The notes below the pieces were generated by a model, which saw nothing but the letters and a program-made list of their open reading frames with translations, was not told the origin of the DNA and searched no databases. Both the position numbers and the translations under genes were made by a program. 47,087 nt of DNA, taken from NCBI GenBank assembly GCA_015296075.1, contig DVDV01000172.1, positions 1 to 47,087 of the forward strand, read 5' to 3'. Positions within the stretch are counted from its first letter, which is position 1. Each line of letters opens with the position of its first letter. This document shows positions 3 through 10,600 of this stretch, piece after piece. This stretch comes from Leptolyngbyaceae cyanobacterium M33_DOE_097 (GTDB lineage: Bacteria > Cyanobacteriota > Cyanobacteriia > Leptolyngbyales > Leptolyngbyaceae).

Positions 3-1664
3 GCAGCGCCCTATGGATATGCTGCACCTGGCTATGGACAGCCAATGTACCAGGCTCCCGCACCGAACCCCTACGCTTATCCGGCCATGGCTCCGGGGAG
101 TATGCCTGCAGCGCCCTATGGATATGCCACTCCGGGTTATCCGGCTCCCGGTTATGGGCAACCAATGTATCCGATTCCACCTGGACAAACCGTAGCGATG
201 CCTGGGGTACCCAATCCCTACGGGTATCCAGTCGCTCCGGGAAATGGCCCCTATGGCGTACCTGCACCAGGCTATGGACAGGGCAGCTATGGCACTCAGA
301 TGGTGCAAGGGGCACCCTTACCGCCCATGCCAGGGATGCAACCCAATCAAATGGGGTATCCAACCGGAGTTGCAACGGGTATTGGTAGTGACGTTAGAAC
401 GCCTTACGCGGTTCCCGCTCCAAATTATGGGCAAGACTGCGTCATGAATGTCTGTTACGGTGCGACTCCGGGGTTAACCGTGCCATCGGCTCCACCCAAC
501 AGCCGAACGGGTCAAGCCTTACCACCTCCACCCGTTGAGGCACCTAACTTTTACCCTGGTGGCACTTCCAGTTTACCGACGCAGCCAGGTTACCCGATCG
601 CACAACCCGTGGGGCAGGTCCAACCGACGCAGCCGACGCAAGCGACACCGCCCACCGAGCAACGTCCATCAACCCGGAGTGCGCCGCTCAACTCACCTTC
701 ACTCAGACTGCAAGGGGTTGCAATTTACCAGGGTGATGAGTTCTCAGCTCGCGCCCGCGTGGCTGGAATTTATCCACTCACGCCAAATTTGTTGGCAGGC
801 GCAACGCTTGACTTTACGGAAGGGAATGCATTTTCAGATTCGCCAGATGATGGTTTGAATATCAACGAGTTATACCTGGCAGCCTCGATTCCAGCTTTAC
901 CCAACCTGCGGTTTGCTGTAGGTCAGCTCGATCTCACCTCGTACTTCGATCGCAATAGTTTTGCGAAAGATGGCGCGACCCACTTCTTCAACACAGCGTT
1001 CCAAACAAACCCGGCACTGGCTGCAACTGCGATCGGCTCGCGCCCAGCCGCACTGGTTAACTGGAGCATCACCGACAACGTTGAAGCAAAGGCCGCTGTC
1101 TTCTCGTCGTCCCGTAGTCTAGAAGATTTTAGCCTAGATGGTTTTGCGGCAGAAGTTGGGTTTCGCTATGGCAACTTTATCGTCAGAGGCACCTACGCAA
1201 CTGCGCGCGATGCTGGAGCTGACACGGGTTTCCAAGAAATCTTTCAAGTCGATCGTGGCAACGGAGAAACGGGATTAAAGCGAGGCGATCGGGAAGATTC
1301 ATTTGGAGTCAATGCTGAGTTATTTATTCCAGAAATCAAAATGGGCATTTTTGCTCGTTATGGTTACTACAACAACCAGGAAATTGGCGAAACAGGCAGC
1401 ACCTTCAACGTCGGTGTTAGTTTCTTAGACGTTTTCACGCCCAACGATCGCGCCGGCATTGCGTTTGGACAACTGCTCTCAAACAAAGACCTGCGCGATG
1501 ACGCTGACGAGCGAACGCCAAACGTGCTTGAGGTGTTCTACGACTTTGCCGTACTCCCCAATTTGCGCCTTGGTTTTTCCTACCAGGCGTTGAACGAGTT
1601 TTCTGAGAGCATTTTTGGGGTTCGCGTCAAAACCGAATTTGATTTAATCCAGCCCAGGAGGTAG
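3..1664 (+). CDS. Outer-membrane beta-barrel protein with Pro/Gly/Tyr-rich N-terminal region (partial, 5' end outside window)
   Basis: The reading frame is open from the first bases, so the true start lies upstream of the window. The visible N-terminal part is a low-complexity run of PGY, APGYGQ and PYGYP motifs with in-frame repeats, followed by a Pro/Thr/Gln-rich linker. From about base 690 it becomes a barrel-like domain of alternating short strands ending in a typical outer-membrane terminus (…GVRVKTEFDLIQPRR), resembling cyanobacterial porin-type barrels. The stop codon overlaps the Shine-Dalgarno of the next gene, a TPR protein, and the genes that follow are GH8, BcsB and BcsA. I infer that this is the outer-membrane pore of a cellulose exporter, replacing the C-terminal barrel of BcsC. 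Pore identity and substrate are inferred from position. An unrelated OprB-like porin is the alternative. Confidence 0.75.
   Translation, partial: AAPYGYAAPGYGQPMYQAPAPNPYAYPAMAPGSMPAAPYGYATPGYPAPGYGQPMYPIPPGQTVAMPGVPNPYGYPVAPGNGPYGVPAPGYGQGSYGTQMVQGAPLPPMPGMQPNQMGYPTGVATGIGSDVRTPYAVPAPNYGQDCVMNVCYGATPGLTVPSAPPNSRTGQALPPPPVEAPNFYPGGTSSLPTQPGYPIAQPVGQVQPTQPTQATPPTEQRPSTRSAPLNSPSLRLQGVAIYQGDEFSARARVAGIYPLTPNLLAGATLDFTEGNAFSDSPDDGLNINELYLAASIPALPNLRFAVGQLDLTSYFDRNSFAKDGATHFFNTAFQTNPALAATAIGSRPAALVNWSITDNVEAKAAVFSSSRSLEDFSLDGFAAEVGFRYGNFIVRGTYATARDAGADTGFQEIFQVDRGNGETGLKRGDREDSFGVNAELFIPEIKMGIFARYGYYNNQEIGETGSTFNVGVSFLDVFTPNDRAGIAFGQLLSNKDLRDDADERTPNVLEVFYDFAVLPNLRLGFSYQALNEFSESIFGVRVKTEFDLIQPRR
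1656..1661 (+). promoter_or_regulatory. Shine-Dalgarno of the TPR gene, overlapping the end of the barrel gene
   Basis: AGGAGG lies in the last two codons of the barrel gene, directly before its TAG stop, and eight bases before the ATG at 1670. It fixes the TPR start at 1670 rather than the in-frame ATG at 1712, which has no ribosome binding site. It also implies translational coupling of the two genes. Confidence 0.85.
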
Positions 1665-1669
1665 CCCCG

Positions 1670-4033
1670 ATGCGGAAAAGCCCCCCAACTCCTCAAACAA
1701 AACGTTTGAATATGAATCACAACAACCGACTGCGCCGGAAACACACTTCCCTATCAGTTCCAATTCTTTCGCTTGGCATTCTCCTAACCAGCGTATCTCT
1801 CGCGTTAGAAGCAACGATGCCACAGGTGACGCTAGCTCAGGCTGTACCCGCCGAGGTGCGGGAAGGCTTCTCGCTGTTAAATCGAGGTTTGGTGAATGAC
1901 GCGATTCGCACCTTACAACGAGCGGTACAACGGTATCCCCAGTCGATTGAAGCAAAACTAGGGTTAGCGATCGCCTACCGACGCGCCGGACGCGATGAGG
2001 ATGCGTTTCGGGTCTATGAGCAAGTGCTGGTGCAAGACCCGAACAACCGATTGGCATTGCGCAGCGTTGGCTTGCTGGGTGGTTATCGGCCTGAGTGGCA
2101 GACACGAGGCATTGAAGCCCTCACAACATTGTTGACCATCACACCCGATGACGTTGAGGCCAGAACGCAACGAGCTTTGTTGTTGGGCTATCAAGGCCGC
2201 TTTCAAGAATCGGTTGCCGACTACGAAATCGTCTTACGCACCAACTCTTCGCCGGAAGTGTTGATCGGGGCAGCCCAAAGCTACACCTACGCAGGCGACC
2301 CAGCCAAAGCCTTAGAGTTGTTTAACCGCTATCAACAGTCGGGTAGAAAAATCACAGGTTACGCCGCGATCGCCTACTCACGGGCACTGCGTGAAACGGG
2401 AAGTCCTTCTCAAGCGGTTCAGTTTTTGGCTCCCCAGCTTTCCTCCAAGTCGGATGATTTGGCGGTACAAACCCGCGTTGAGTTGTCGCAGGCTTACCTG
2501 GCAAACAACCAACTGACGCAGGCGCTGGCAGTTCTAGAACCTTTACAGGGCCGTTCAGATGCGATTTTGCCACTGGCCCGCGCCTTGAATGAAACTGGGC
2601 AACGAACCAATCAGCCTGAGTTAACCGCTCGCGCGATCGCGCTCTACCGCCGCGCCTTGAGTGAAACGCCCAACCCTTCACCTGCATTCTTACGAGAAGT
2701 CGCGGATGTCTTTAGTGGGCAACCGCAAGAACGAGAAACCGCTCTCCAAATTTACCGCCGACTCGCAGCCGCCCAACCGAACGATCGCGCTTTGCAGGTG
2801 CGGCGACTGGGGTTAGAGAATCAGCTCGGCTACATCTCAAAAGCTGATCTGCGGCAACAACTACGCCCCTATCTGGAACCGTTACCGACCGATCCAATTG
2901 AACAACGTGCTTTAGCAAAGGCACTGGTTGGGGTTGATCCGGATCCAGAGCTGTTGCCAGCGTATCTAGCCCTGGCTCAAACCGGGGCGATCGCGGCTGA
3001 ACCCTTCCTCAATTTCCGCATCGCGCAGATGTTTATCGAGCGCAATGATCTCGTCTCAGCTCGCAATGCCCTGGCAGCTTACACCAGCACTCCAGCGGGT
3101 AGCCGCGACCTGGCGCCGCAACTGCTGGCCGCCGAGATTGAGCGACGTGAAGGCAACTTAGAAGCTGCAGCCCGCCGTTATGAAGCGGTGTTAGCCAACA
3201 ATCCTCCAGCCGATGTTGCAGATGGAGCCTTACAAGGACTAGCGGGAATTCGGTTAAGCCAGGGGCGGATGACTGAAGCAATTCAGATTTACGACCAGTT
3301 GATTGCTCGCAACCCTCAAAATGCCCAACTCATTCTCGGTCGCACTAGCATTGCCTATCAGGCCAATCAAATTTCAGAGCAACAGGCCGAAGCGGTGTTG
3401 AATGGTTGGTTACAGACGCGCCCGGTGACGGATAATCCACCTGAATTATTCAGCCTGGTGGGAGCCTTACCGCCCAGTTCCAATCGGGTTGCTGTGTATG
3501 ATCGCCTGACTGCGGTCGATCCCAACTATGTACCAGTCCAGCTCCGACGCATTCAAGTCCTGGCCCAGCAAGACCCAGCCGCTGCGAAAGCGCAGGTAGC
3601 TCAATTGGTTGCCCGTCGTCAGGCACTTGGCATCGATACACCCAACGCTTATCTGCTAGAGGCGCAACTGGCGCAGGCTGTCGGTGATACGGCTTTAGCA
3701 TCGAAGTCTTATGAGGCCGTGATTGCGCGTCAACCTGCTAACACAGATGCACTGGTGGGTCTGGGTAACTTGCGCCTGCAACAGCGTCAACTTGGTGCCG
3801 CAGAGCAGTACTTTAACCAGGCTCTTGCCTTCCGGCCAAATGATGTGGGGATTCGGCGATCGCTGATTGAAGTGACCGTTGCTCAGGATCGGCCCCTCAC
3901 AGCAATTAAACAGCTTGAAGACCTGCAAATGCGGCAGATGACTGAAGACAGGAGCATTGCCGAGCGGCGTCAAAAAATTGAGGAAGACTTCCTGCAAAGA
4001 CGCGGCTTTCAACCACCGTGGGAGCGCTATTAA
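1670..4033 (+). CDS. TPR-repeat periplasmic protein, BcsC N-terminal-like
   Basis: The protein has 787 residues. A basic N-terminus and a hydrophobic stretch (SVPILSLGILLTSVSLAL) with AQA near residue 57 form a signal peptide. The rest is helical tetratricopeptide repeats throughout, for example the blocks from residues 60-140 (EGFSLLNRGLVNDAIRTLQR…, KLGLAIAYRRAGRDEDAFRVYE) and near the C-terminus (DALVGLGNLRLQQRQLGAAEQYFNQALAFRPND). There is no barrel at the C-terminus, unlike full BcsC of about 1,150 residues in enterobacteria. In BcsC the TPR part is a periplasmic scaffold that guides cellulose to the outer-membrane barrel, and I infer the same role here with the upstream barrel protein as partner. 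The start is set by AGGAGG at 1656-1661. It is followed by a 134-base spacer and the GH8 gene. Confidence 0.85.
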   Translation: MRKSPPTPQTKRLNMNHNNRLRRKHTSLSVPILSLGILLTSVSLALEATMPQVTLAQAVPAEVREGFSLLNRGLVNDAIRTLQRAVQRYPQSIEAKLGLAIAYRRAGRDEDAFRVYEQVLVQDPNNRLALRSVGLLGGYRPEWQTRGIEALTTLLTITPDDVEARTQRALLLGYQGRFQESVADYEIVLRTNSSPEVLIGAAQSYTYAGDPAKALELFNRYQQSGRKITGYAAIAYSRALRETGSPSQAVQFLAPQLSSKSDDLAVQTRVELSQAYLANNQLTQALAVLEPLQGRSDAILPLARALNETGQRTNQPELTARAIALYRRALSETPNPSPAFLREVADVFSGQPQERETALQIYRRLAAAQPNDRALQVRRLGLENQLGYISKADLRQQLRPYLEPLPTDPIEQRALAKALVGVDPDPELLPAYLALAQTGAIAAEPFLNFRIAQMFIERNDLVSARNALAAYTSTPAGSRDLAPQLLAAEIERREGNLEAAARRYEAVLANNPPADVADGALQGLAGIRLSQGRMTEAIQIYDQLIARNPQNAQLILGRTSIAYQANQISEQQAEAVLNGWLQTRPVTDNPPELFSLVGALPPSSNRVAVYDRLTAVDPNYVPVQLRRIQVLAQQDPAAAKAQVAQLVARRQALGIDTPNAYLLEAQLAQAVGDTALASKSYEAVIARQPANTDALVGLGNLRLQQRQLGAAEQYFNQALAFRPNDVGIRRSLIEVTVAQDRPLTAIKQLEDLQMRQMTEDRSIAERRQKIEEDFLQRRGFQPPWERY

Positions 4034-4167
4034 AGCAATCATCTCCGCGATTATCACCTGGACTGCGTATTCATTATTTATCTATCGACTCTAATTCAAT
4101 TCACTTGTTCCTACTTAATTCATTTGTCTGAACGTACTGTGCTCTGCTGTTTTGACTATCCCAACCC

Positions 4168-5442
4168 ATGCGAGATTTTTCTCACCCGGTGATTCTCATG
4201 TTTATTGTTCTCAATGCCCTCATGTTGGGCTTGAGTAGCTGTCGGGATGCTCAAAATTCGCAATCCGCGATCCAAGCTTCTCCAGCCCCTTCAGTCACAC
4301 CTACTGATGGTGTCAGCCCTGTAGCTGCGGTTGCGGCTCCAGCAGCCCTGAATGAGTTGCTGCAACAAAGTTGGGATGCCTATCGACGACAGTTCATTCA
4401 GTCAGACGGGCGTGTGATTGACCTTGAGCAAACAGCTGACAACCGTACCGTGTCTGAAGGGCAAGCCTATGCCATGTTACGAGCGGTCATGATTGGCGAT
4501 CGCGCCACCTTTGACCTGACGCTGAACTGGGCTGAAAACAATCTTCAACGCAAAGACGTTAACGGCAAACAAATCGACAACCTCTGGAGTTGGAAGTGGG
4601 GACGCACACCACAAGGTCAATGGGGCATTATTGATGCCAACTTTGCCAGTGATGCAGATGTCGATGCTGTCACCGCTCTCATCTTTGCTTATCGGCGTTG
4701 GCAAGACCCTGCCTATTTAGCGCTGGCCCGTACGAAATTAAAGGATTTGTGGAATTACTCAACTCTGGTTGGTAAGAATGCAGCGGGCAAACAAGTTCGT
4801 CACTTTTTACCAGGCCCCGCGATCGCGTTTCAAGAAGGCAATTTAGTCACCCTTAATCCCTCTTATCTAGCGCCTTACGCATTTCGCCTGTTTGCTCAAA
4901 TAGATTCTGAGCATGATTGGTTAAGTTTAGTCGATAGCAGCTATGAGTTTTTAGACGCTGCAACAGAGATATCGAATGTGCGTTTACCCGGTGATTGGGT
5001 CGCCATTGATCGAGAAACTGGCATTTTGACACCACTTCTTTCTCCCCCACCTGGCACCAGTGAATATGGCTTTGATGCCTACCGCGTTTGGTGGCGAGTC
5101 GGACTGGACTGGAGCTGGTTTAAAGAGCCACGAGCCAAGAAGTTTTTAGAACAGCGAATGACTCACCTCAAACAGGTGTGGAAAGCACAAAAGAAACTAC
5201 CCGCTCGGATCGATTTACAGGGCAATCCTATCGTCGAGTTTGAATCAACTGCTCAATACGGCATGGTGTACTTCGCAATGCAAATTATTGATCCAGCGAT
5301 CGCCCGCGAAATTGAGCAAAAAAAGATCGCACCCACCTATCGCAATGGTTATTGGGATAGCGACAGTGCTTATTACACGCACAACTTGATCTGGCTAGGA
5401 CTGGTGCCTCCAGCAAACCTGGCTGCGCTGATCCGTCCGTAA
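4168..5442 (+). CDS. bcsZ: Glycoside hydrolase family 8 endoglucanase, BcsZ-like lipoprotein
   Basis: The protein has 424 residues. Residues 8-25 form a lipoprotein signal ending in the lipobox LSSC, with Cys25 as the predicted lipidated residue. The GH8 domain fills about 60-420. SEGQAYAML supplies Glu97, the usual proton donor position, and ASDADVDAVTALIFAYRRW (from residue 160, with Asp162 and Asp164) matches the GH8 signature. BcsZ hydrolyses beta-1,4-glucan in the periplasm and is needed for proper cellulose export. Its place between the TPR gene and bcsB agrees with that role. BcsZ of enterobacteria is a soluble periplasmic enzyme, so a lipid anchor is a difference. Whether it acts on cellulose or another beta-glucan cannot be told from sequence. 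Confidence 0.88.
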   Translation: MRDFSHPVILMFIVLNALMLGLSSCRDAQNSQSAIQASPAPSVTPTDGVSPVAAVAAPAALNELLQQSWDAYRRQFIQSDGRVIDLEQTADNRTVSEGQAYAMLRAVMIGDRATFDLTLNWAENNLQRKDVNGKQIDNLWSWKWGRTPQGQWGIIDANFASDADVDAVTALIFAYRRWQDPAYLALARTKLKDLWNYSTLVGKNAAGKQVRHFLPGPAIAFQEGNLVTLNPSYLAPYAFRLFAQIDSEHDWLSLVDSSYEFLDAATEISNVRLPGDWVAIDRETGILTPLLSPPPGTSEYGFDAYRVWWRVGLDWSWFKEPRAKKFLEQRMTHLKQVWKAQKKLPARIDLQGNPIVEFESTAQYGMVYFAMQIIDPAIAREIEQKKIAPTYRNGYWDSDSAYYTHNLIWLGLVPPANLAALIRP

Positions 5443-5457
5443 TGTTTTGAAAAAACA

Positions 5458-5489
5458 CCAGAAGTGAATGGCGATCGCGCTCCTTCTGG
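5458..5489. repeat. Intergenic hairpin between bcsZ and bcsB
   Basis: CCAGAAG (5458-5464) and CTTCTGG (5483-5489) form a perfect 7-bp stem enclosing a HIP1 palindrome. No T-run follows, so it is not a standard terminator. It could mark mRNA processing or stabilisation inside the operon. Confidence 0.35.
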
Positions 5490-5543
5490 CAAGTGTAAAA
5501 ACCGCGTTTACTTCCTACCACCGTCGTTTACCGAAACCTAATC

Positions 5544-8051
5544 ATGAAAGGCACTCACCGACCTGAGTTACCTAAGCAACGTTCGACCCAAAAATCGTAT
5601 TTTCGCGCAACTTTTTGGTTGTTGTTGTCTTCTCCCGCGTGGCTATTTCTAGCCGGAATCGCCACCCAAGCCCAAACGGATAAGTCGATTCAAAGACAAG
5701 AGGATCAACTGATTCGCCAATACAGCCCCAGTGGGTCGGCACCCGTGTATCGACTCCCCAAGGCAGCTCCGGCACCCGTGTATCGTCCCCCGGCTGCCCC
5801 CGCGCCCAGACGCAGCGTGAGTGAGCCAGCGCCCGAACCCGAACCCGCACCGAGATCGGCTCCAAGTGCGCCTAGTCGGCCAGCCGAACCTGCAACCGCT
5901 GCCAAGCCTGCTGCTAACTTAGGGCCGCTGAGTCGATACGAAGTCGAGTTTAATCGCAGCCCTGTGGTGGGAAATGCATTGCAACTGCGCGGCGCTTACT
6001 CAGAAGTAAGATTTGGGTTTACCCGCCCGCGTGACTGGAATGTGCAAGCCGTTAAAGCCTTGATTCGCTTCAAGCACTCTCCCGCTCTTTTAGCCAATCG
6101 CTCTAACTTAACCGTGCGGGTGAATGGGGTTAGCGTTGGTAGCACGCCGCTCAACCGGAGATCGGGGCAAATTGGGCAGTTACTCGTGTCAATTCCGCCT
6201 AGAGTGCTGCAAAACTACAACGAAGTGACTCTGGTAGCCCAGCAAAACAACTCACCCGAATGTCCTGAAAATCCGGGTGACCCCACTCTCTGGACAGAAG
6301 TGCTACCCGACTCTAAGGTGATGCTTGATTTTCGTCCGGTGGCTGTGCCGCTCGACCTGAGCAACTATCCCTATCCCTTCTTTGATCCGCTCAGCTTAGA
6401 CACTAACCGAATTGCCTATCTCACACCTGAGCAACCGAACGAAGCGTGGCTCACCTCGATGGCTCAGTTTCAGGCAGGGTTAGGGCGACTGGCAGATTTT
6501 CGCCCTCTGGAAACCCGCTTATTTAAGAAACTAGAAGAAGTACCACTAGGACAACGATTGGTTATCATTGGCACCCCGGCTGAGCAATCGGCTCTGCGTG
6601 GTTTGAAACTGCCACTCCAAGTGGTGAATAACCAACTCGTTGACGAGTCTAAAACCCCACTTGCTGAAGATGTTGGCGTATTGATGTTAGGCACTACCCG
6701 CAATGGGCAGGTGCCTGTTTTGGTAATTACTGGCAACGGGCCAGATGGCGTTTCCAAAGCCGTTCAGCTCCTGGTTCAGGCCGATCAGCGCAAGCTCACA
6801 ACCGGACAATACATGACCGTGAGTGAGGTGCCAGATGTGCCCTCGCCATCACCTCGCAGTTGGCCCCGTTTTATTCCAGCAAATGACTCCTTTAAGCTCA
6901 GCGACCTGATGGGTGCTGAAAATAAGGCGATGGAGGATGTCACAGTGCGGGGAGCCTACGCTCCACCAGTGGACTTTAACTTCCGAGCATTACCAGACGA
7001 TCGCCTCAAGCGTGGCAGCACAATGACCTTGCGCTATAGCCACAGCCCCCAGGTCAATCCGCGCTTATCGACTTTAGAAGTGCGCATTGATGGGGTGCCA
7101 ATTGGTGGTAAGCGATTAACGAAAGAAGATGGCGTTACCAAAGACACTTTCAAGCTTGATTTACCGCCCGACTTGATCAAGCCCGACTCAAAGATGCAGG
7201 TTGTTTTTAACCTGACTCCCAAAGAACTGGGTCAATGTCAAACTATGCCTGACCAGCAACTCTGGGGCACGGTACATAGCGATACCTCGTTTGACTTACA
7301 ACGAGAAAATGCAGTGCAACTGCCCGATCTGGGCCTGCTGAAAGCGGGTTATCCCTTTGCGGCACCTCAAGATCTTTCGACCACTGCGATCGCGGTACCC
7401 GATTCACCTAACGCTGCTGAACTTCAAACCCTGCTGGAGTTTAGCGAGCGGCTCGGACGCTTGAGCCAATCTGACACAGTTAAACTGCGAGTCTTCACGG
7501 CTGGCACCTTACCCGAAGATGTTAGACAAGAGAGCAACCTGGTTGGCATCGGTCGTCGAGAACGCTTCCCCTTCCCTGAGATCAACGAAGCAAAAGGCTT
7601 CCAACTGGGCAACTTTTTCACCCGTTCTAATGGGCAAAGTCAGGTTCAGACGGCACCCGATACAGGCGGTGTGGTGAAGCAAGTCGTTTCCCCGTGGAAC
7701 AACAACCGAGTCTTGCTGGCGCTAACCGCTCAAGACGATGCCGGGTTAGGCAAAGTTCAAGACCTGTTTGAGCGCGATATCCTCTTCTTCCAACTAAAAG
7801 ACGACACCGTTGTCGTGAATACCACGAAGGATAATCCCTCACCCTACGACGTAAACGACTACTCGTTTGAGTCCTTCCGAGAAGCCGATCGCACCCGCCA
7901 GATTGAAAACACCTCACCTATCAACAAAGTCTCTAACTTCTTAAGCAACAACTGGTATCTACTGCCAACAGGCATCATTCTGGCAGCTTTGGGCATGTAT
8001 GGCGTCGCCCAACTCTATCTCAAACGGCTCGCGGTAGGAGATAAAAAATGA
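5544..8051 (+). CDS. bcsB: Cellulose synthase regulatory/periplasmic subunit BcsB
   Basis: The protein has 835 residues. An N-terminal signal (about residues 20-43) is followed by a Pro/Ala/Glu-rich linker (about 60-125), then two repeats of a beta-sandwich carbohydrate-binding plus flavodoxin-like module. The two halves are recognisable from LRGAYSEVRFGFTRPRDW… and VRGAYAPPVDFNFRALPDDR…, each followed by RVNGVSVG/RIDGVPIG and a Cys-containing loop ending in LW. A single transmembrane helix near the C-terminus (about 804-826) anchors it. In the BcsA-BcsB complex this helix completes the synthase membrane domain and the periplasmic modules guide the glucan. The last base pairs overlap the bcsA start (ATGA at 8048-8051). 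The long Pro-rich linker after the signal may span peptidoglycan, which is inference. Confidence 0.92.
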   Translation: MKGTHRPELPKQRSTQKSYFRATFWLLLSSPAWLFLAGIATQAQTDKSIQRQEDQLIRQYSPSGSAPVYRLPKAAPAPVYRPPAAPAPRRSVSEPAPEPEPAPRSAPSAPSRPAEPATAAKPAANLGPLSRYEVEFNRSPVVGNALQLRGAYSEVRFGFTRPRDWNVQAVKALIRFKHSPALLANRSNLTVRVNGVSVGSTPLNRRSGQIGQLLVSIPPRVLQNYNEVTLVAQQNNSPECPENPGDPTLWTEVLPDSKVMLDFRPVAVPLDLSNYPYPFFDPLSLDTNRIAYLTPEQPNEAWLTSMAQFQAGLGRLADFRPLETRLFKKLEEVPLGQRLVIIGTPAEQSALRGLKLPLQVVNNQLVDESKTPLAEDVGVLMLGTTRNGQVPVLVITGNGPDGVSKAVQLLVQADQRKLTTGQYMTVSEVPDVPSPSPRSWPRFIPANDSFKLSDLMGAENKAMEDVTVRGAYAPPVDFNFRALPDDRLKRGSTMTLRYSHSPQVNPRLSTLEVRIDGVPIGGKRLTKEDGVTKDTFKLDLPPDLIKPDSKMQVVFNLTPKELGQCQTMPDQQLWGTVHSDTSFDLQRENAVQLPDLGLLKAGYPFAAPQDLSTTAIAVPDSPNAAELQTLLEFSERLGRLSQSDTVKLRVFTAGTLPEDVRQESNLVGIGRRERFPFPEINEAKGFQLGNFFTRSNGQSQVQTAPDTGGVVKQVVSPWNNNRVLLALTAQDDAGLGKVQDLFERDILFFQLKDDTVVVNTTKDNPSPYDVNDYSFESFREADRTRQIENTSPINKVSNFLSNNWYLLPTGIILAALGMYGVAQLYLKRLAVGDKK

Positions 8052-10600
8052 CCAACTCTACGGTAGAACCTCAATCACGTCTAAGTAAGCAACAACGTTT
8101 TCTCAACTTGCTGCTGAACTCAGTTCCCAATTTCTTTGATCAGGTGTTGGGGCGGTTTGGCCAGCGTCAGTTATTGCTGCTCTTAGTCCTCCTCGCGATC
8201 GCGTCTATTCCGCTCATTATCACCCCCTTAAAAATCTGGCAACAAGGCTTTGTTGCAATTTCCTTGATTCTTTTAGGTTGGGTTGTCGTTCATATTGAAA
8301 GTAAGCAGTCTGATTCAAAGGTTAGTGAATACCTCCACCTTTTTTTGATCGGGCTAAGCGTCATTGCGACCTTGCGCTACTTCTACTACCGCACTGTCTA
8401 CACGCTTAACTTTGATGGGTGGATCAACGGGTTCTTTTGCGCCGTTCTTTACCTGGCAGAGTTGTACGCCTTTATTGGACTGTTGCTGTCTTACTTTCAG
8501 ACCCTCAAACTGCGCGATCGCACTCCGGTTCCACTTGATACGCGTCCGCAAAGCCAGTGGTTTAAGGTTGACATTTACATTCCAACCTATAACGAAGAAG
8601 TTGAAATTGTGCGAAAGACAGCCGTTGCCGCGCTTGCAGTCGATTACCCGGCTGACAAGAAACGAGTGTACGTGCTGGATGACGGACGTAAGTATCCTGA
8701 ACGCCGCAAAGAGCTGCAAAAAATGTGTGATGAAGTGGGTTGCATACTTCTCACACGTCCCGACAATAACCACGCCAAGGCTGGCAACATTAACACCGCA
8801 ATGAAGCGCACCGATGGCGATCTGGTCATGATCCTGGATTGTGACCACATCCCCACCCGCGACTTCTTGCAAAATACAGTTGGGTTCTTTTATGACCCTA
8901 AAGTGACGCTCGTGCAAACGCCTCACTGGTTTTACAACCCTGACCCGTTTGAGCGTAATTTGCTGACGCAAGGGCGCGTACCAGTCAGTAACGAGCTGTT
9001 CTATAAGGTCGTGCAAAAGGGCAATGACTTTTGGAACGCTGCATTCTTCTGCGGTTCAGCAGCCGTGATTCGCAAAGACTATGTATTGCAGATTGGTGGC
9101 ATTGCGGTTGAAACCGTGACCGAAGACTGCCATACCTCCTTCCGGCTTCACTCTTTGGGCTACAAATCGGCTTACGTTGACAAGATCATGGTGGCAGGGT
9201 TAGCGCCTGAGAAATTCTCAGCGCTGGTGGGGCAACAGGTGCGCTGGGCACGGGGGATGGCGCAGATTATGCGGCTCGAAAATCCGTTGTTTAACCGCAA
9301 GCTCAATCTCACGATTCCCCAACGGCTCTGCTACTTCTCCGCCATGTTTGGCTTCTTCTACGGTGTGCCACGGATTGTCTACGCGATCGCCCCGACCCTC
9401 TTCTTGCTGTTTGGCATTAACCCAATTCGGGGTTTGGGGTTAGAAACGTTAGCCTTTGCGGTGCCCCATATCGTTCTGTCAATGGATACTAACTACATCA
9501 CCTCTAAGCGCGTGCGCTTCTCCTTTTGGAATGAGGTGTTTGAATTTGCCCTGTCGTTTTACACGGCGGTCGTCACCTGTATGGCGGTCATTAACCCCAA
9601 AATGGGGTCATTCAACGTGACTGATAAAGGGCTTTCGGTCACAGAGCGCAGTTTTGACTGGGAATCGGCTCGGCCTCTGATTGTCGTTACGGTCATGGTG
9701 TTGGCGTCTTTGCTGGCAGTGCCCTTCTGGATTTTGTTGCGACCGGAAGATTTTGAGGCGGTGCTGGTCAACGCGATGTGGGGCGGCTTTAACCTGCTGC
9801 TGTTATCGGGTGCGCTATTAGCAGCCTACGAACAGCCTCAACTGCGGCGATCGCACCGACTCAACCGTGAACTCAACGCAATTATTTACAGCCAGGGGCA
9901 GACCTGGCATGGCAGAACGATTGACGTAAGTGAAACAGGTGCGCGGATTGTGCTTGACTCCTGGCCAAACATTCCCGATGTGATCGAGTTAGAGGTGATG
10001 GGCGACTACAGTGCCCGTGCTTTCTTAACAGCCCGGATTGTGCGAGGCGTGCCCCTGAATGAAAATCAATCGCTGCTGATCGTGGACTTTTTAGAACCAA
10101 CTCGTGAACAAATGGATGCCCTCACACTTGTCCTCTACTCTGACGTGCGGGAGTGGTACTCACAGCGACGCGAAAATGTGGATGATCCACTCGGTTCGCT
10201 GCGATTCATCGTTTCGGGGATTCGACGCGCCTTCCGCGATCCAAAACCGATGGAAGGGGTGAAAGTACGGAAGCAAGTGCAGAAAGAAGCGCAGTTATTC
10301 TGGGAAGGACGGCTCTACTCAGGCATCGTAACTGACCTGGGCTTACAAAGCCTGCGCCTTATGATTAGTCCGCAAGACCTACCCAACTGGGAAATTCTTA
10401 GCGAGAAGAAACCCGTTGTCGGTTTGCTGATCGATGACCCAGAACTCAATGATGGGAAGACAAACCGCTTGCTGGTCGTCGTCAATGATATTCAATTTGT
10501 TTCGACCGATACAGGCAATCAACTAGCGCTTGAACTGCGATTCCCAGAATCGTTACGCGATCGCCAGGAAGACAAAGTTCAACATCTGCTTGTTGCCTAA
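8048..10600 (+). CDS. bcsA: Cellulose synthase catalytic subunit BcsA with PilZ domain
   Basis: The protein has 850 residues. Transmembrane helices flank a family 2 glycosyltransferase domain (about 170-420) with all synthase motifs: DDG (211-213), DCD (264-266), TED (358-360) and QQVRW (396-400). The gating-loop motif FNVTDKG is at 522-528. A PilZ domain follows with R600xxxR604 and D626-V-S-E-T-G631, the full c-di-GMP signature, so activation by c-di-GMP is expected. The enzyme polymerises UDP-glucose into beta-1,4-glucan and extrudes it through its membrane channel. The start overlaps the bcsB stop and has TAGGAG seven bases upstream (8035-8040). Residues about 738-835 resemble a second PilZ-like barrel without the binding motifs. 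No BcsG, BcsE, BcsF or BcsQ is near. Confidence 0.95.
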   Translation: MTNSTVEPQSRLSKQQRFLNLLLNSVPNFFDQVLGRFGQRQLLLLLVLLAIASIPLIITPLKIWQQGFVAISLILLGWVVVHIESKQSDSKVSEYLHLFLIGLSVIATLRYFYYRTVYTLNFDGWINGFFCAVLYLAELYAFIGLLLSYFQTLKLRDRTPVPLDTRPQSQWFKVDIYIPTYNEEVEIVRKTAVAALAVDYPADKKRVYVLDDGRKYPERRKELQKMCDEVGCILLTRPDNNHAKAGNINTAMKRTDGDLVMILDCDHIPTRDFLQNTVGFFYDPKVTLVQTPHWFYNPDPFERNLLTQGRVPVSNELFYKVVQKGNDFWNAAFFCGSAAVIRKDYVLQIGGIAVETVTEDCHTSFRLHSLGYKSAYVDKIMVAGLAPEKFSALVGQQVRWARGMAQIMRLENPLFNRKLNLTIPQRLCYFSAMFGFFYGVPRIVYAIAPTLFLLFGINPIRGLGLETLAFAVPHIVLSMDTNYITSKRVRFSFWNEVFEFALSFYTAVVTCMAVINPKMGSFNVTDKGLSVTERSFDWESARPLIVVTVMVLASLLAVPFWILLRPEDFEAVLVNAMWGGFNLLLLSGALLAAYEQPQLRRSHRLNRELNAIIYSQGQTWHGRTIDVSETGARIVLDSWPNIPDVIELEVMGDYSARAFLTARIVRGVPLNENQSLLIVDFLEPTREQMDALTLVLYSDVREWYSQRRENVDDPLGSLRFIVSGIRRAFRDPKPMEGVKVRKQVQKEAQLFWEGRLYSGIVTDLGLQSLRLMISPQDLPNWEILSEKKPVVGLLIDDPELNDGKTNRLLVVVNDIQFVSTDTGNQLALELRFPESLRDRQEDKVQHLLVA

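Follow-up and report, generated by a model that had tools for sequence, protein, structure and literature searches.

BcsA and BcsB synthesize glucan and extrude it through the inner membrane. In bcs systems of the E. coli/Enterobacter type, which also contain a GH8 enzyme, an outer-membrane barrel and a long periplasmic TPR superhelix are joined in BcsC, a single chain with a BcsC_C domain (PF05420), whereby a passage of PMC5638805 gives the TPR part as 750–900 residues with nineteen motifs. Separate barrel and TPR scaffold proteins are found in alginate export of P. aeruginosa, where the 18-stranded AlgE works with AlgK, itself a lipoprotein, and excerpts of PMC9734138 provide this pair as a precedent for a division between the two parts. 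Passages of PMC9601211 offer a further precedent with EpsX/EpsY of Myxococcus xanthus, an 18-stranded, AlgE-like barrel with a separate periplasmic OPX partner in polysaccharide export of the Wzx/Wzy pathway, and report 16–18 strands for exporters of synthase pathways. For cyanobacteria (Thermosynechococcus, Nostoc punctiforme), the XcsAB-TolC model combines a PilZ-type cellulose synthase and an endoglucanase with a proposed HlyD-like adaptor and TolC, and contains neither BcsB nor a TPR protein nor an OprB barrel. According to the relevant passage of Pereira et al. (2015; PMC4594306), the BcsC_C domain was found in none of the cyanobacterial strains analyzed and BcsC was then left out. Excerpts of a 2025 review (PMC12430437) call the mechanism of cyanobacterial cellulose secretion poorly defined and present the operon type of cyanobacteria as one without bcsB. 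BcsC-like barrels with a proposed role in heterocysts are mentioned for five cyanobacterial strains in a section of PMC4365693; passages of PMC4390846 contain nothing further on the exporter. For alphaproteobacterial bcs operons without BcsC, another export route is suggested in a passage of PMC7112194. Among the titles, abstract beginnings, and passages covered, which mostly exclude subscription papers, none identifies an OprB-type barrel as the exporter in a cyanobacterial bcs system.

Here, we describe a bcs locus from Leptolyngbyaceae cyanobacterium M33_DOE_097. Like the BcsC systems, it combines an outer-membrane barrel and a long TPR superhelix, of a length similar to that of the BcsC TPR part, with bcsA, bcsB, and a GH8 gene; unlike BcsC, these are two chains, and the OprB-type barrel has no detectable relation to BcsC_C. 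The separation of barrel and scaffold is shared with AlgE/AlgK and, as a barrel with a separate periplasmic partner, with EpsX/EpsY. However, the barrel has 16 strands and belongs to a Pfam family other than that of AlgE, and the TPR protein lacks a cysteine in its signal region, whereas a lipoprotein is encoded separately upstream. With the XcsAB-TolC model, the locus has the PilZ-type synthase and the endoglucanase in common, but no HlyD-like adaptor occurs among the five window operon proteins. In family and fold, the barrel resembles OprB and the cyanobacterial SLH-OprB porins, from which the bcs barrels differ by the missing SLH domain, a disordered head, an extra C-terminal tail, and a strict tie to bcs loci.

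Organization of the bcs Locus

The window, i.e., the whole analyzed stretch of 47,087 nucleotides, corresponds to contig C32 in a draft genome of 6.96 Mb (437 contigs) and starts inside the barrel gene. As proposed in the initial annotation, ORFs together with Pfam and NCBIfam matches yielded the order barrel, TPR protein, GH8, BcsB, and BcsA, all on the plus strand. The 3' part of the gene for the OprB-family outer-membrane barrel protein (3–1664, a 5'-open ORF assigned by Pfam, fold model, and profile comparison) is followed by genes for an exported TPR superhelix protein of 787 aa (1670–4033; Pfam and fold model), a BcsZ-like GH8 endoglucanase (4168–5442; Pfam, with 166 bits to the NCBIfam BcsZ model, which is under the cut-off of 299), BcsB (5544–8051; Pfam), and a BcsA cellulose synthase with a PilZ domain (8048–10600; Pfam and NCBIfam CelA/BcsA, 719.8 bits at a cut-off of 699.1). 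BcsA contains DDG, DCD, TED, QQVRW, RRSHR, and DVSETG, which we take to be the catalytic and PilZ motifs. The Shine-Dalgarno-like AGGAGG of the TPR gene (1656–1661, plus strand) constitutes the final two codons of the barrel gene before its TAG (1662–1664) and is located eight bases 5' of the TPR ATG (1670), which agrees with the suggested coupling of both genes by an overlapping ribosome binding site. Of the loci of 80 relatives, 78 were measured, and in 50 of these the barrel and TPR frames share 4 bases.

The 5' part of the barrel gene was found on contig C146 (L015 14683–15762). It starts like a signal peptide and contains a repeat rich in Pro, Ala, Gly, and Tyr; the signal peptide and about 360 head residues are located at this contig end. 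Since the end of C146 and the start of the window overlap exactly by 58 bases, which lie within the repeat, the assembly seems to be broken inside the head repeat. The join is supported by a close relative (L102), in which the whole set is contiguous in one piece, namely GH9, a coiled-coil gene, a lipoprotein gene (minus strand), barrel, TPR protein, GH8, BcsB, and BcsA. The same genome harbors a second barrel-TPR-BcsB set on contig C414 (L016 7735–14207) with no GH8 gene in between, the barrel of which is 56% identical to that of the window and has a head that, by eye, is not Pro/Gly/Tyr-rich.

The Barrel Is Assigned to the OprB Family

The window barrel matches the Pfam family OprB (PF04966) with 40.8 bits (curated cut-off 22.9; E 2.5e-10), and an OprB match at E ≤ 1 was obtained for 60 of the 81 barrels searched. 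BcsC_C (PF05420) gave no Pfam match in the window barrel or any of the 81, and Alginate_exp (PF13372) none among the 81 at E ≤ 1. In profile–profile comparisons, the barrel family aligned over 270 columns with the profile of 13 cyanobacterial SLH-OprB porins (98.9%, E 2.6e-17), whereas no relation to five BcsC barrels was detected (0.9%, E 0.061). The AlphaFold2 model, generated with an 81-sequence alignment, shows 16 strands (pLDDT 89.9, pTM 0.85; pLDDT below 50 for residues 1–18 of the modeled stretch), a number inside the range reported for synthase-pathway exporters. Its best solved match by Foldseek is OprB of P. putida (4gey, 2.3e-13), with general porins near (8.5e-13). By VIA, 4gey reached Z 27.3 (2.9 Å over 296 residues) and the runner-up Z 23.5; 4gf4, also an OprB structure, was level with general porins (Z 21.4 over 236 residues). 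The margin of OprB over general porins is thus modest by Foldseek and clear by VIA for 4gey. BcsC is absent among the 50 matches listed by Foldseek or VIA, which carries no evidential weight. When the barrel alignment was used as a profile against the PDB, two matches resulted, both to ferritin (E 0.71). Judged by sequence profiles and predicted fold, the barrel is a member of the OprB sugar-porin family and not a descendant of BcsC. OprB porins are sugar uptake channels, and the genome encodes 13 other porins of this family above the cut-off.

Head, Loop, and Tail of the bcs Barrels

N-terminal to the barrel lies a low-complexity head, which by composition is rich in Pro, Gly, and Tyr (3–698 for the portion inside the window, plus strand). 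The initial description of a separate barrel with such a head was correct for the window protein, the gene of which is incomplete in the window, but it does not apply to the family: P+G+Y amounts to 7–41% with a median of 20%, and to at least 30% in only 13 of 77 relatives (3 of 80 were excluded as too short). As far as composition tells, the richness is a trait of the window protein and not family-wide. In the relatives, the heads are variable in length (150–738 aa) and of low complexity, and no Pfam domain was found at E ≤ 0.1 in the seven heads scanned. None of the 80 relatives, 75 of them with a complete N-terminus, matches an SLH profile built from the 13 comparison porins, all of which match it, as they must.

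At the other end, all 81 bcs barrels carry 5–10 extra residues after the aligned Phe of the last strand (L157 being cut by the contig end), whereas Phe is the terminal residue in 13 of the 13 SLH-OprB porins compared. In the window, this tail covers 1644–1661 (plus strand), and DVTPRG is the commonest tail start (24 of 81 barrels). Because of the even strand count, both barrel ends should face the periplasm, which would place head and tail there. A head that spans the periplasm, as put forward in the initial annotation, would agree with this expected topology, and a possible role of the head is to tether the barrel through the wall. Strands 5 and 6 are connected by a 35-residue loop (933–1037, plus strand), which begins with LTSYFDRNSFAKDG and is the putative pore loop by homology with OprB. 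Its mean conservation of 0.90 is the highest among loops of more than two residues and far better than that of the head, and 18 of the 59 invariant columns fall into barrel residues 100–133. Such conservation is as expected for one shared substrate.

The TPR Protein

The AlphaFold2 model of the TPR protein (pLDDT 88.7) consists of TPR-style helices from residue 61 to 777. With 787 aa, the protein is similar in length to the reported TPR part of BcsC. Its model resembles many kinds of TPR superhelices, without BcsC or AlgK being singled out, and the sequence profile likewise lists BcsC (9b8a, 1.8e-11) among many TPR proteins. The N-terminal 66 residues of the TPR protein of the window contain no cysteine (one sequence, inspected by eye). 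The C-terminus RRGFQPPWERY (3998–4030, plus strand) is conserved, with R778, G779, F780, Q781, and W784 invariant across 74 sequences. Together with the barrel tail, it is a natural candidate for docking.

Barrel and TPR Protein Are Tied to bcs Loci

In a first survey, 386 genomes of the phylum were searched, whereby matches of BcsB or the barrel with E < 1e-80 were regarded as strong. BcsB occurs in 22 of the 386 genomes at E ≤ 1e-5 and in 17 at E < 1e-80. A strong barrel was found in 16 genomes, all of them with strong BcsB, and in none of the remaining 370. These 16 are exactly all strong-BcsB genomes of the class to which the window belongs, while the seventeenth (G343), from another class, is without the barrel; it has a tandem pair of BcsB genes (L077, 9195–13936) with none of these barrels. 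Seven weak barrel matches (E 2e-7 to 9e-6) belong to distant porins; by eye, an SLH-like N-terminus is visible in five of them, but not in the inspected part of L065 and L072. The TPR protein (E < 1e-60, two candidates scored per genome) is present in the same 16 genomes as the barrel, and its gene is located directly 3' of the barrel gene in 20 of 20 loci. BcsB lies on the same contig as the barrel for 17 of the 20 strong barrels; in G005 and G118 the contigs stop between the TPR and GH8 genes, and in G360 (C427) the barrel-TPR pair has no bcsAB within 10 kb downstream. A TPR-BcsB-BcsA locus without the barrel was observed in G011 (L085, 6510–13907), the genome of which has a complete locus elsewhere, and L085 perhaps uses the barrel of the latter. 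In G085, G177, and G332 (L097, L098, and L099), a different, distant BcsB-like protein was detected (E 4e-9 to 4e-11), which in L097 is followed by a protein with a weakly BcsA-like stretch; no barrel or TPR protein of the window type adjoins it in the three loci.

A second survey covered the best 80 of 202 barrel relatives from a scan of a contig collection (genome_contigs), all from cyanobacterial records (some assigned by genus name); it overlaps with the first in some organisms, so that the two are not independent. Counting only loci with enough downstream sequence, 77 of 78 carry the TPR gene after the barrel, 64 of 65 carry BcsB, 63 of 65 BcsA, and 58 of 69 GH8; the 11 loci from which GH8 is missing retain barrel and TPR protein. 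Exceptions are L141, which has barrel and TPR genes only, and L172, where other ORFs separate the TPR gene from a BcsB frame truncated at the edge of the sequence. L148 (11065–15696) shows a TPR-BcsB hybrid frame followed by BcsA in two pieces, which is either a decayed locus or an assembly fault. No fused barrel-TPR frame occurs in the 80 loci. A search of a plasmid collection with the barrel returned one record, the 93-kb plasmid pMIC7113.02 of Allocoleopsis franciscana PCC 7113 (L194). On it, the barrel, annotated as "hypothetical protein," and the TPR gene are oriented opposite to BcsB and also to a glycosyltransferase gene taken as BcsA; between them and BcsB lie a WecB/TagA/CpsF glycosyltransferase gene and a lipoprotein gene, the product of which has 38% identity to the lipoprotein of the window genome. 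Even with bcsAB separated or inverted (L090, L141, and the PCC 7113 plasmid), the pair remains intact, so that barrel and TPR protein seem to travel as a unit. A mirror-tree analysis of 48 complete loci gave a partial r of 0.06, i.e., no specific barrel-TPR coevolution after allowing for the other proteins.

A PF05420 barrel was not found at any of these bcs loci in the 386 genomes. At E ≤ 0.001, the domain occurs in 8 of the genomes, in 2 above the cut-off, and the two PF05420 genomes with strong BcsB have it about 2.5 Mb (G338) and 0.9 Mb (G343) away from BcsB. Without a BcsC_C barrel, an exporter would otherwise be missing from these loci, and no other outer-membrane channel was recognized among the conserved locus genes. 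An ABC sugar transporter was not seen as a conserved neighbor, whereby genes other than the named ones were viewed as unnamed ORFs only. The relatives of the barrel are thus found with bcs genes rather than away from bcsA, and the separate, adjoining barrel and TPR genes likely represent a distinct export design in cyanobacteria, as had been suggested at the outset.

Two Upstream Genes Share the Distribution of the Barrel

Two previously undescribed genes on C146 share the distribution of the barrel. The first, divergent on the minus strand (L015 13679–14431), encodes a predicted lipoprotein of 250 aa without a Pfam match at E ≤ 0.1 or a PDB match at E ≤ 1; NCBIfam matches are weak (best 6e-4, in 8 of 41 members). 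At E < 1e-20 it is present in 16 of the 386 genomes, the same 16 as the barrel, with three further weak matches (E 2.6e-4 to 7e-4), and its gene lies at 61 of 69 testable loci, a few copies being located away from the barrel. One cysteine after the N-terminal hydrophobic stretch is invariant (64 of 64), while a crude lipobox pattern fits 25 of 64. The next gene outward (L015 12592–13539) encodes a predicted membrane/coiled-coil protein of 315 aa, which was found in 16 of 16 barrel genomes versus 0 of 32 others, the latter being a non-random, hand-picked set. The matches of G011, G174, G215, and G360 are not at the barrel locus; across the second survey, the gene was present at 50 of 63 loci. 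Both proteins are probably further parts of the machine. Further upstream, a GH9 cellulase is encoded (L015 9298–12063), which bears a CBM2 at its N-terminus as well as Calx-beta repeats; GH9 is also located upstream in L087 and L102.

A Putative Cellulose Exporter Derived From a Sugar Porin

Taken together, the genes present, their families and predicted folds, and their linkage and co-occurrence make it fairly probable that the OprB-derived barrel and the separate TPR protein form the cellulose exporter, by analogy with AlgE/AlgK. BcsA and BcsB would make the glucan and push it across the inner membrane, and GH8 would trim the chain in analogy to BcsZ. The exported TPR superhelix would guide the chain over the periplasm and dock on the separate 16-stranded barrel, through which the chain would exit across the outer membrane, the barrel working like AlgE with AlgK and perhaps being tethered through the wall by its head. 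The lipoprotein may assist the barrel in the way PelC assists PelB, a comparison drawn from the abstract of PMC12141448. Counting against an export function are the family of the barrel, which is known for uptake, the negative mirror-tree result, and the missing barrel in L085; it could also be that an OprB-type in-pore loop narrows the pore too much for a polymer.

The barrel might instead be an uptake porin for glucose or cello-oligosaccharides freed by the cellulases of the locus, with cellulose leaving elsewhere, e.g., by a TolC-type route. The OprB family and fold, the GH8 gene in the operon, the GH9 cellulase upstream on C146, and the import of glucose and fructose by OprB-type porins in Nostoc, as given in a passage of PMC9620832, are in line with this. 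Nevertheless, we regard it as unlikely, because it leaves the strict tie to BcsB and the adjoining TPR protein of BcsC length unexplained, because barrel and TPR protein stay where GH8 is gone, and because the 13 other OprB-family porins of the genome are available for uptake. Less likely still is a barrel that mainly serves as an anchor or scaffold, the head tying the cellulose machine to wall or polymer and the polymer passing elsewhere. The long, variable, low-complexity head and the SLH wall anchor that ordinary cyanobacterial OprB porins bear at the same end would fit such a role, but the pore loop is much better conserved than the head, and the conserved genes offer no other recognized outer-membrane channel. 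That the barrel is the C-terminal barrel of BcsC, split off and diverged past recognition, as the initial annotation's reading of a BcsC in two parts implies and as operon context and the length of the TPR partner would allow, is highly improbable and was rejected on family grounds, since Pfam, profile comparison, and the best solved fold all point to OprB.

If barrel and TPR protein do export cellulose, a further, more tentative step would be that cyanobacteria converted a porin family for sugar uptake into a polymer exporter, whereby the wall anchor was lost and a low-complexity tether and a docking tail were gained. This possible, though rather doubtful, scenario would result in a seven-part, envelope-spanning machine of coiled-coil protein, lipoprotein, barrel, TPR protein, GH8, BcsB, and BcsA, with the lipoprotein in a PelC-like position at the periplasmic mouth, and such a conversion, if true, would be an independent origin of an outer-membrane exporter in synthase-dependent secretion. 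In many cyanobacteria with cellulose genes, two proteins, a remodeled sugar-porin barrel and a helical-repeat protein encoded apart from it, appear to have taken the place of the one-piece outer-membrane exporter. This would account for the previous lack of detection of the standard exporter in these organisms. For bcsB-bearing cyanobacteria, this type of locus provides a concrete, testable exporter together with two further co-distributed genes. If the assignment is true, recruitment of OprB porins for polysaccharide export is possible, and candidates could be sought more widely in bcs operons that lack bcsC, e.g., those of alphaproteobacteria described in the passage of PMC7112194.
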